A DNA stretch of 36,446 nucleotides, taken from the NCBI GenBank assembly GCA_002721725.1, contig PBLK01000026.1, forward strand, positions 1 to 36,446, given 5' to 3'. The first letter of the stretch is position 1. Every line of letters begins with the position of its first letter. Made by a program: the position numbers and the translations under genes. This document shows, in pieces, positions 7,248 to 11,184 of the stretch. This DNA is from Rhodobiaceae bacterium. Lineage in GTDB: Bacteria; Pseudomonadota; Alphaproteobacteria; RS24. The notes beneath the pieces were generated by a model, which saw only the letters and a list, made by a program, of their open reading frames with translations, was not told the origin of the DNA and ran no database searches.

Positions 7248-8300
<1,053 letters not shown>

Positions 8301-8317
8301 TCAATAGGAACAGTAAT

Positions 8318-9886
8318 TTAAGCGATCAGAGAGCCGGGCGCTTGTTTCTCACGCTTTATCAGTAATTTGTTTAGTGCACTGACATAAGCCCGCGCTGACG
8401 CCACCATAGTGTCAGTATCGGCGGCACGACCGGTAACCGTTTTACCTTTTTCTTCCAATCTGACACTGACTTCAGCTTGCGCATCCGTGCCTTCGGTAAC
8501 CGCATGGACTTGATACAGTTGCAAATTCGCCTCATGCGGGAACAGCGCATTAATGGCATTAAAAGTGGCATCAACTGGGCCATCGCCAGTGCTATCGATT
8601 TCAGTCTCTTTTCCGTCAATCTCCAGTTTCAGGTTGGCCTGTTGCGGCCCTTCCGAACCTGCAATGACACGCAAGGAAACCAGCTTAACGCGATCTGCCC
8701 CTTTGGCTACTTCATTATCGACAAGAGCGACAATATCATCGTCAAACACATGTTTTTTACGGTCGGCCAAATCTTTGAAGCGGGTAAACGCTTCTTGCAA
8801 TTGATTATCGCCCAGCTCATATCCCAGCGCTTTAATCTTTTCGCGGAACGCATGGCGACCTGAGTGTTTACCCATCACCAGAGAGGTTTGCGAAATGCCA
8901 ACACTTTCTGGTGTCATGATTTCGTAAGTCTGGTTGTTTTTTAGCATACCGTCCTGGTGAATGCCGCTTTCATGAGCAAAAGCATTTTGTCCAACAATAG
9001 CTTTATTATATTGTACCGGAAAAGCTGTGACTGACGAAACCAGTTTGGAAGCACGCGACAGGCTTGTAGTTTCAATATTAGTCCATTGCGGCATGGCGTC
9101 ATTGCGCACATTCAGCGCCATAACAATTTCTTCCAAAGCCGCATTACCGGCGCGTTCACCCAAGCCATTAATGGTGCACTCGACTTGCCGCGCACCGGCT
9201 TGCACACCCGACAAGGAATTGGCAACTGCCAGCCCCAAATCATTATGGCAATGGGTCGAGATAATCGCCTTTTCAATATTCGGCACGCGCTGGAGCAACA
9301 TGGTGATAATCTCGAAATATTCCTGCGGCACTGTATAGCCCACAGTATCAGGAATATTAATTGTGGTGGCTCCTGCCTTAATAGCGGTTTCTACCGTGGC
9401 GCACAAAAAATCGCGGTCCGTGCGGGTTGCATCCTCTGGCGACCATTCAACGTTTTCGACAAGATTGCGCGCGTGGCTGACGGAGAAGGCAATTGCTTCC
9501 ATTACCTCATCGGGTTCCATTTGCAGCTTGTGCTTCATGTGCACCGGACTAGTTGAAATAAAAGTATGGATACGCGGGTTTTTCGCGTGCTTCACTGCAT
9601 CGGCAGCGCGGTCAATATCTTTTGCACCGGCCCGGGCCAAACCACATACTTGCGCATTTTGCATTAGCTTGGCGACTTCCGACACGCTTTCAAAATCGCC
9701 ATTTGAGGCAATCGGAAACCCCGCTTCGATAACATCAACACCCATTGCATCCAGCAACTCGGCGATTTGTAGTTTTTCTTCCAGCGACATAGACGCGCCC
9801 GGTGACTGCTCGCCGTCACGCAAAGTGGTATCGAAAATATAGACGCGGTCGTGTTCGTGGCCGCTTTGTTTGATTGAGTTGATCAT
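8318..9886 (-). CDS. leuA: 2-isopropylmalate synthase
   Basis: LeuA condenses acetyl-CoA with 2-oxoisovalerate, the committed step of leucine synthesis. It has the catalytic TIM-barrel motifs [12 protein letters not shown] and [24 protein letters not shown] in the linker, and the C-terminal leucine-sensing domain (from about residue 400), so feedback inhibition is expected. I place the start at ATG 9886 because AAGGA lies seven bases upstream; an in-frame ATG at 9901 has only a weak site and would add five residues. The resulting 522 residues match the usual long bacterial form. The gene is preceded by an apparent leucine leader-peptide region (9887-10089) and followed 29 bases later by mreB. 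Confidence 0.96.
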
Positions 9887-9890
9887 AGTC

Positions 9891-9917
9891 TCATCCTTCA
9901 TGTGACCTATGGGTCAT
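9891..9917 (-). CDS. Possible 8-codon mini-ORF before leuA
   Basis: An ATG at 9917 follows a strong AGGAAAGGA sequence four bases upstream. It opens an 8-codon frame (MTHRSHEG) that stops four bases before the leuA ATG. It is in a different frame from leuA and crosses the leuA ribosome-binding site. Ribosomes on it could keep that site open or pass on to leuA. The inverted repeat TGACC-N4-GGTCA (9902-9915) lies inside it. Expression is unproven. Confidence 0.3.
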   Translation of the reverse strand: MTHRSHEG

Positions 9918-9937
9918 GTGTTCCTTTCCTGATAAAT

Positions 9938-9979
9938 CCCCTGAAAACGCGCCGTTCATCGACTGTCCGATCTCAGGGG
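9938..9979 (-). promoter_or_regulatory. Hairpin at the end of the leuA leader ORF
   Basis: CCCCTGA at 9938-9944 and TCAGGGG at 9973-9979 are perfect inverted repeats (7 base pairs) around a 28-base loop, which itself holds a small ATCG/CGAT stem. Read on the minus strand, the leader ORF's UGA stop is part of the upstream arm, so a ribosome at the stop would block the stem. Only a short AUUUAU follows the downstream arm, so this is not a textbook intrinsic terminator. It may be a pause or Rho-dependent element, or part of a translational switch. Confidence 0.5.
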
Positions 9980-10089
9980 CAGGTAAGGAGAAGGATGGAT
10001 AGTGCAGTGGCGGATGCGGGCGCGCGCAAAATCGCACGGCCGAAAGAGGCCGATTTCCGATTTTGAAAAGATTTAGCGCGTAAGTACAT
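9973..10089 (-). CDS. Predicted leucine leader peptide (LeuL-like) before leuA
   Basis: A 38-codon ORF starts at ATG 10089 and ends at the TGA at 9975-9973, 86 bases before the leuA start. Its C-terminal end reads LSILLLTCP, so four of the last nine residues are leucine (codons CTA, CTT, CTC, CTT). A leucine cluster just before the stop of a short ORF in front of leuA is the signature of ribosome-mediated attenuation, known for leu operons of enterobacteria and predicted in other proteobacteria. The stop overlaps a hairpin arm. There is no strong ribosome-binding site before the ATG, so translation may be near-leaderless or begin at an internal codon. The rest of the peptide is basic and shows no domain. 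Confidence 0.6.
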   Translation of the reverse strand: MYLRAKSFQNRKSASFGRAILRAPASATALSILLLTCP

Positions 10090-10116: not shown

Positions 10117-10131
10117 ATGAGCTTTGCTCAT
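10117..10131. other. Perfect 6-bp inverted repeat between the LysR gene and the leuA leader
   Basis: ATGAGC-TTT-GCTCAT is a perfect 6-bp inverted repeat with a 3-base loop. It lies 75 bases downstream of the LysR-type gene and 28 bases upstream of the leuA leader ATG. On the minus strand a TTTT run follows only after ten bases, so it is a poor intrinsic terminator. It could equally be a protein-binding site for the leu promoter. No clear -35/-10 pair was found nearby. Confidence 0.25.
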
Positions 10132-10205
10132 ATATCTGTTTACGCAAGGAAAACTCGCATGGCAAGCACTTTCAGCGCTAGATTCCGCGCTTTAGAATAC
10201 TAGCA

Positions 10206-11138
10206 TCATGCGCTGAAGCTGCCGCGCAGTCTAGCCGACTCATCTTCAACCACTTGCACGACAAAATCCATCACCGCACGTACATGGCCAAGCTTGGCCA
10301 TATCGGCCCGCGTCAGAAGCCATAATTCCAAGCTGCCGACCAGATCAGGACCAGCCAAACAAGTCAAGCCGCTGACATTGTCGGCTTGAAAACACGGCAA
10401 GGCTGCTACCGCATCGCCATTTAAACAAGCGGCCAAACGCGTTGCGGCGCTTGAGGAACGCATCAGTAGCTGACCAGCTTTTTCGGCCCGCGACAGCCAC
10501 CAAACCGGTCCAAGCGGGCGCTCTTCTTCGGAAAAGCCAATAATTTTGACGTCGGACAAATCATTTCTCGCTGGGCCGTCGCCTAGTGTCGAGGCATAAT
10601 CTCGGGACGCATAAAGCCCATAAGCTACATCGGTCAATTTTCGAACCAGCATATCGCCTTGTGTCGGCCGCGCCAGCCTGAGCGCAATATCGACATCGCG
10701 CAGGGCATTCATCACACGCGGGGCCGGGCCTAAGCCAGAAATCGACGGATCGGTGATGATATCTAGGGCAACATCGGGTGATTTTTCCTGCAAAACTGGT
10801 AAGAGCGGCCCCAACAGGCCGCCTGCTACCACTTCACTGGCTGAAAGCCGCACTACACCCCGAACATCGCCATAACCGGCCTGAAAATCCCGTTGCAGTG
10901 ATGACAAACTATTATCAACAGGTTCTAATGATTGCAGCAGCCTTGTTCCGTCCTGCGTCAACGCATAACCGCTCCGCAGCCTCTCAAACAGCCGCGCATC
11001 TAACGCTTCTTCGAGATTACCTATGCGCCGCAAAACAGTGGTGGTATTGACATTCAACTCGCGGGCAGCGGCAGATAGGCTGCCGGTTGCGGCAACTGCT
11101 AGAAAATAGCGCAGATCATCCCAATCAAGGCCTTTCAT
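10206..11138 (-). CDS. LysR-type transcriptional regulator
   Basis: This 310-residue LysR regulator has an N-terminal winged helix-turn-helix (about residues 5-62, with FLAVAATGSLSAAARELNVNTTTVLRRIGNLE) and a C-terminal effector-binding domain from about residue 90. The ATG at 11138 is chosen because the protein then begins MKGLDWDDLRYFL, the normal position relative to the HTH. A TTG at 11171 would add 11 residues without a ribosome-binding site. Neither start has a good Shine-Dalgarno sequence. The effector and targets are unknown. It lies between ilvC and leuA, but its effector domain gives no sign of a link to amino-acid control. An array of 8-base TTGC-headed repeats lies just upstream. 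Confidence 0.9.
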   Translation of the reverse strand: MKGLDWDDLRYFLAVAATGSLSAAARELNVNTTTVLRRIGNLEEALDARLFERLRSGYALTQDGTRLLQSLEPVDNSLSSLQRDFQAGYGDVRGVVRLSASEVVAGGLLGPLLPVLQEKSPDVALDIITDPSISGLGPAPRVMNALRDVDIALRLARPTQGDMLVRKLTDVAYGLYASRDYASTLGDGPARNDLSDVKIIGFSEEERPLGPVWWLSRAEKAGQLLMRSSSAATRLAACLNGDAVAALPCFQADNVSGLTCLAGPDLVGSLELWLLTRADMAKLGHVRAVMDFVVQVVEDESARLRGSFSA

Positions 11139-11152
11139 AATTGCAGCAGAGT

Positions 11153-11184
11153 ATCTGCAAATACGCAACAATGCAATTATGCAA
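11153..11184 (-). repeat. Four tandem 8-base TTGCNNNN units upstream of the LysR gene
   Basis: On the minus strand, four consecutive 8-base units each start with TTGC: TTGCATAA, then TTGCATTG, then TTGCGTAT, then TTGCAGAT. They end 14 bases before the LysR start codon. The dyad-like content and position fit an autoregulatory binding region, but the units are short and low in complexity. Confidence 0.4.

Follow-up and report, generated by a model that had tools for sequence, protein, structure and literature searches.

The product of leuA, 2-isopropylmalate synthase, catalyzes the first committed step of leucine synthesis. Ahead of leuA in enterobacteria, the leu leader (RF00512) acts by a transcription terminator/antiterminator switch. 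In the erm translational attenuators, ribosome stalling in a leader ORF frees the hidden Shine-Dalgarno sequence of the next gene. The published account of the LEU element, upstream of actinobacterial leuA, includes a pseudoknot and proposes binding of a protein (Seliverstov et al. 2005, PMC1262725). Its authors favored a protein because, in the Streptomyces leuA leader, altering the Leu codons reportedly gave results at odds with classical attenuation (PMC1262725). Among the Alphaproteobacteria, the described leader ORFs include the ilvBN attenuator (PMC4117421), uORFC-8-2 before cysS (PMC8632094), and rnTrpL/peTrpL (PMC10117765). These are amino-acid leader ORFs from the same class as the one described here; they serve other genes and amino acids and have been described as acting on transcription, and by term counts leuA does not occur in any of these three papers. 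Searches of the open literature turned up no account of a leuA leader from Alphaproteobacteria; Vitreschak et al. 2004, reportedly a survey of attenuators in proteobacteria, possibly mentions one.

Here we describe a leader element ahead of leuA in a contig of a Rhodobiaceae bacterium (PBLK01000026.1, 36,446 nucleotides; this whole stretch is referred to as the window). The order on the minus strand is a LysR-type gene (10206-11171), 319 nt of intergenic DNA, leuA, 29 nt, and mreB. The genes and the central features of the leader are as follows.

8318..9886, minus strand: leuA, 2-isopropylmalate synthase, 522 aa (NCBIfam equivalog NF002087, 864.6 bits; start at ATG 9886 by comparison with relatives)
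7248..8288, minus strand: mreB (NCBIfam MreB), 29 nt downstream of leuA (spacer 8289-8317)
9973..10089, minus strand: leader ORF of 38 codons and a stop, MYLRAKSFQNRKSASFGRAILRAPASATALSILLLTCP; relatives share its frame and Leu end
9985..10002, minus strand: putative regulatory Leu codons, CTA TCC ATC CTT CTC CTT (codons -9 to -4); Leu at -4 in 60/60 loci and at -6 in 56/60, CTT about eightfold enriched relative to the leuA coding sequence
9971..9979, minus strand: 5' arm of hairpin P2, CCCCTGAGA, containing the stop codon; compensatory changes in 6/9 pairs across 57 loci
9938..9946, minus strand: 3' arm of hairpin P2, TTTCAGGGG; same covariation evidence as the 5' arm

The first-pass annotation had pointed to a 38-codon, leucine-rich minus-strand ORF ending LSILLLTCP. 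This description is exact at 9973-10089, and the ORF recurs in many Alphaproteobacteria. Its 3' end reads CTA-TCC-ATC-CTT-CTC-CTT-ACC-TGC-CCC-TGA, in which the four Leu codons (CTA, CTT, CTC, and CTT) are of the minority type, TTG and CTG making up 65% of the Leu codons in the window genes. At the Leu frequency of this genome, the probability of four or more Leu among nine codons is about 0.007. When the intergenic region was base shuffled, 7 of 3,000 shuffles produced an ORF with a start, at least four Leu in its last nine codons, and a stop within a stem of 7 bp or more. Against chance, this result from a single genome is only suggestive; the decisive evidence that the putative leader ORF is real is its conservation. 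Within the ORF there is also a hairpin, AAAATCG...CGATTTT (window 10028-10064), which is probably incidental, because it is imperfect at the matching site in close relatives.

To follow the leader beyond the window, we sampled LeuA loci from 60 related genomes and 80 named records. The same architecture precedes leuA in most of the alphaproteobacterial loci sampled, with carriers among the sampled records in Bradyrhizobium, Methylobacterium, Microvirga, Chelatococcus, Rhodovulum, Paracoccus, Sphingomonas, Asaia, and Caulobacter; it was not found in the gamma-, beta-, and deltaproteobacterial loci of the sample. Leader peptides at these loci end LLLTCP, LLLLISP, LLLLSRL, or LRLTRP directly before the stop. 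The first-pass annotation had proposed comparing the leuA loci of relatives and had named non-conservation as evidence against the leader; in this comparison, both the Leu cluster and the open frame are conserved.

A covariance model built on the core (Leu run plus hairpin) matches 132 of 387 alphaproteobacterial genomes, nearly always with one copy each; in the genome that holds the window it revealed no second copy, the next best hit having E above 1. In 111 of the 113 matched genomes with a listed LeuA, the element lies directly upstream of leuA on the same strand, at a median gap of 76 nt. Matches in a phylum-wide sample were alphaproteobacterial in 105 of 106 genomes. A LeuA is listed for 153 genomes, and in 41 of them the model gave no match. 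Inspection of 20 unmatched leuA genomes uncovered divergent versions in 5 (for example, CCCCAAACGG/CCGTTTGGGG in L145), and the remainder appear to be without the element. On this sampling, the leader element is class-wide in Alphaproteobacteria and matches no Rfam family.

The gene downstream is not always the same one. In families f13 and f15 (L118, L119, L128, L130, L132, and L135), the element precedes a yeast-type LeuA (TIGR00970 in L132), which in the genome tested is about 27% identical to the LeuA of the window. Because it is also found ahead of this non-orthologous enzyme, the element seems to track enzyme function rather than one orthologous gene.

The leader stop codon (TGA, 9975-9973) lies inside the stem CCCCTGA/TCAGGGG, formed by 9979-9973 with 9944-9938. 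The 7-bp hairpin noticed in the first pass (9938-9979) is thereby confirmed, and it can be extended to nine pairs (9979-9971 with 9946-9938); we refer to it as P2. Loci were chosen by P2 and Leu content, so that the proportion of P2 cells that are paired across the 57 loci (96%) is biased upward; this applies less to the compensatory changes, which exceed those in all shuffles and all slid versions. Pairing is kept through changes of the stop to TAA or TAG (L031, L039, L027, and L046). The core is conserved in both sequence and structure, and the P2 loop is variable. At L056, L060, L068, L078, and L145, the stop is found two or three codons further downstream (e.g., after RPWA or CPKR) and the hairpin persists. 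Since it is retained where the stop has moved, the hairpin itself seems to be selected.

A P2-like hairpin with an internal stop codon was also seen ahead of a threonine dehydratase (ilvA-like) gene (L126, G331:C14:107286-107336). The ORF there ends GGARIPRP and is neither Leu- nor Ile-rich, and the hairpin is possibly a sister element or a chance occurrence.

A second pairing joins the Leu run to the ribosome-binding region of leuA. The longest ORF would place the leuA start at 9901, five codons upstream of ATG 9886. Close relatives do not have the upstream ATG, which argues for a start at 9886, and the Shine-Dalgarno sequence ahead of this codon (AAGGATGA, 9898-9891) is common to them. The pairing, termed P1, has the following parts.

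9990..9997, minus strand: P1 5' strand, CATCCTTC, within the Leu run (putative anti-Shine-Dalgarno); pairs with 9892-9899 in the minimum free energy (MFE) fold, with own-versus-swapped covariation
9892..9899, minus strand: P1 3' strand, GAAGGATG, holding the leuA Shine-Dalgarno (MFE fold)
9980..9989, minus strand: 5' side of the P1 extension (9985-9989 and 9980-9983), pairing with 9922-9926 and 9928-9931 (MFE fold)
9922..9931, minus strand: 3' side of the P1 extension (MFE fold)

P1 played no part in the selection of loci. It was assessed by the duplex of the last 27 nt of the leader with positions -45 to -1 of leuA, taken from the same genome or from GC-matched swaps; swaps were used because base composition makes raw duplex energies against the upstream ORF segment uninformative. 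Mean duplex energy was -17.6 kcal/mol for own pairs versus -14.9 kcal/mol for swapped pairs (z -7.5, 0/20,000), and the signal is also present within Rhodobacterales-type loci alone (11/20,000). Controls using upstream leader or ORF segments and leuA coding segments gave energy z values between -1.5 and 0.7. P1 and P2 were the only strong signals in the full set of segment pairs tested; for a pseudoknot of the P2 loop with the spacer, the leuA region, or the ORF, there was no own-versus-swapped signal.

In RNA folding, which the first-pass annotation had recommended, the window leader was more stably folded than its shuffles (z -4.15). Blocking the Leu run in silico increased exposure of the leuA start (-14 to +3) in the window from 0.34 to 0.54; the mean across loci went from 0.46 to 0.52 (p 0.001), a small gain on average, with none in several loci. 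Blocking the early ORF in silico had no significant effect on this exposure. In Rhodobacterales, most P1 pairing falls upstream of the core Shine-Dalgarno instead of on it, so blocking of leuA there would be indirect. The hairpin at the stop codon had initially been taken for the folding switch. It is conserved, but it is not the sequestering stem, a part that would instead fall to the pairing between the Leu codons and the leuA ribosome-binding region. A minimal attenuation model does not account for P2, which may speed refolding after ribosome departure or bring the two P1 strands together.

The element also extends upstream of the ORF, where two promoter-like boxes are located.

10160..10165, minus strand: -35-like box, TTGCCA; TTGCNN-17-TAAACA at the same place in 17/19 family loci (consensus match only)
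10137..10142, minus strand: -10-like box, TAAACA; invariant in 17 loci and always 17 nt from the -35 box

A sigma-70 consensus scan of the window found no promoter. From the pattern match at 10165-10137, the leuA transcript is predicted to start near 10130, upstream of the ORF. A transcript beginning downstream of 9973 had been named as evidence against the leader; as far as the sequence allows, the promoter-like box that 17 of 19 family loci carry ahead of the ORF speaks against such a start. The functional unit is larger than first noted, with the putative promoter (about 10165) at one end and the start of leuA (9884) at the other.

Downstream of the ORF, in the interval up to leuA, a scan of the window found no intrinsic terminator on the leuA strand. 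A T-tract after the hairpin is absent in the window and in most loci, and a T-rich stretch after P2 (5 T in 8) is reached in 5 of 60. An Rfam scan of the window detected no family, including T-box or metabolite riboswitch; the window leader matched neither Leu_leader (RF00512) nor any other family at E ≤ 5, and none of 16 related loci had a match at the gathering score in Rfam 15. At L030 (G037), a divergent version, GCTTAAGC/GCTTGAGC, is followed by ATTTTTATAG and resembles an intrinsic terminator; at this locus the leader may act on transcription.

These results bear on transcriptional attenuation, the type of control seen in enterobacterial leu operons, in which the ORF would govern a terminator (intrinsic or Rho-dependent) ahead of leuA. 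The leader peptide and hairpins are compatible with it, as are the few loci that are T-rich after P2 (ATTTTTATAG in L030; 5/60 with 5 T in 8), and Rho-dependent versions leave no clear signature. Nevertheless, we regard it as unlikely, given that the T-tract is missing in the window and most loci, that the leader is without an Rfam match, and that the conserved pairing targets the leuA ribosome-binding region, which a terminator does not need. Attenuation of leuA through Leu codons, as originally put forward, is strongly supported by conservation, whereas the terminator-type switch that it implied is not, there being neither a T-tract nor a Leu_leader match. Given the general absence of terminators and the probable masking of the leuA start by P1, the leader is most simply read as a translational attenuator.

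Codon statistics at the leader end were collected from 60 non-redundant loci, with expected counts derived from the leuA of the respective genome. All 60 have Leu at codon -4 (48 CTT, 12 CTA, and no other codon) and 56 have it at codon -6; at codon -5, Leu occurs in 46 and Arg in 14, 13 of the latter being CGA. The last codon before the stop (-1) is Pro in 47 and Leu in 11. CTT was observed 117 times against 13.9 expected, CTG 36 times against 119, and TTG once against 39. The frame that ends at the hairpin stop contains 4.03 Leu per nine codons versus 0.22 and 1.15 in the other two, neither of which has a Leu cluster in the 60 loci. Slow decoding of Arg (CGA) at -5 and slow termination at Pro -1 are candidate contributors that may add to the response.

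The frame dependence of the Leu enrichment (4.03 per nine codons versus 0.22 and 1.15) is hard to reconcile with an RNA switch that binds a protein or small molecule and carries the ORF incidentally, as once proposed for the actinobacterial LEU element. Such a switch would suit a core kept in sequence as well as structure, and the actinobacterial authors favored a protein because Leu codon mutations had non-classical effects (PMC1262725). The Leu codon at -4 is invariant, however, compensated TGA/TAA/TAG changes keep the stop within P2, and the loop of P2 varies, which together make this explanation decidedly improbable.

The N-terminal part of the ORF behaves differently from its end. Substitutions there are about equal at the three codon positions, without codon-position bias, and the N-terminal peptide sequence differs freely between genera. 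The terminal codons, rather than the peptide, therefore appear to matter. We considered a conserved peptide function and rejected it on this codon-position evidence. The same pattern weighs against a leader peptide acting in trans or as a ligand-sensing arrest peptide, which we hold to be very doubtful. Pro occupies the final codon at 47 of 60 loci, and Pro before the stop slows termination in known arrest peptides; this Pro is also set by the CCCC of P2, however, and is replaced by Leu in Rhodobacterales. Trans-acting leader peptides are reported in alphaproteobacteria (peTrpL; PMC7298713). Finally, a chance ORF over a structured 5' untranslated region with no regulatory role has almost nothing to commend it, since, common as short ORFs are and although the combined features arose in 7 of 3,000 base shuffles, it is contradicted by class-wide conservation, position, and two independent covariation signals.

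We conclude that the leuA leader is quite probably a translational attenuator, in which the Leu codons serve as an anti-Shine-Dalgarno and a stalled ribosome frees the leuA start. The leader has the general makeup of an amino-acid attenuator, with a cluster of codons for the pathway product and an RNA structure that overlaps these codons and could control the next gene. The leuA mRNA would start near 10130 and carry the attenuator. In a leader without a ribosome, the 3' end of the ORF (Leu codons and stop) would form the 5' side of a long hairpin, with P2 enclosing the stop codon and P1 joining the Leu codons to the ribosome-binding region of leuA, which would keep leuA translation low. With charged tRNA-Leu plentiful, ribosomes would complete the ORF and leave, and the hairpin would re-form. 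With charged tRNA-Leu scarce, a ribosome would stall on CTT-CTC-CTT and cover the 5' strand of P1, freeing the leuA start; we infer the direction of regulation, as well as the stalling and the leucine response, from this arrangement. The minority Leu codons (CTT, CTC, and CTA) would then be sensor and anti-Shine-Dalgarno sequence at once.

By description, the nearest known relative is the actinobacterial LEU element. Both have an upstream ORF with a run of Leu codons and the same target, leuA; both pair the Leu run with the leuA Shine-Dalgarno as a base stem (here from the window fold and covariation); and neither has a proposed terminator-based mechanism. The LEU element is described as having a pseudoknot, whereas the alphaproteobacterial element is without a pseudoknot signal and is centered on the stop-codon hairpin CCCCTGA/TCAGGGG. 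With the enterobacterial leu leader (RF00512) it shares Leu codons in a leader ORF ahead of leuA that are proposed to sense charged tRNA-Leu, but the window leader is without a terminator and without an Rfam match. Stalling in the erm attenuators results from antibiotic plus nascent peptide, while in the leuA leader it would result from empty A-sites at Leu codons. On balance, we favor a class-wide translational attenuator, absent from Rfam 15 as a family, that uses the same Leu codons as starvation sensor and anti-Shine-Dalgarno and precedes two distantly related LeuA forms (bacterial-type and yeast-type). As it is found ahead of both, the switch would have outlasted or followed the replacement of its gene.

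The adjacency of leuA and mreB is widespread and is kept far beyond the family of the window. The gap of 29 nt in the window compares with -11 to 72 nt in the family and more than 100 nt in many others, and the genes downstream form an elongasome cluster (MreC, a PBP2-like transpeptidase, and RodA/FtsW). In a sister genus (L012, L013, and L014), mreB overlaps the end of leuA by 8-11 nt, which may couple translation of the two genes. It is possible that mreB is co-transcribed with leuA, but under translational control of leuA its expression need not change, and an effect of leucine on mreB by polarity or coupling is speculative.

Taken together, a single compact element, recognizable with a covariance model, would account for the way leucine controls leuA in many Alphaproteobacteria. 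It would be an amino-acid attenuator acting on translation, whereas terminator-based leaders are the textbook case. A short unannotated gene would gain a role, and the start codon of leuA is corrected. Since the mechanism of the parallel LEU element has been left open, a test in an alphaproteobacterium could inform both systems.
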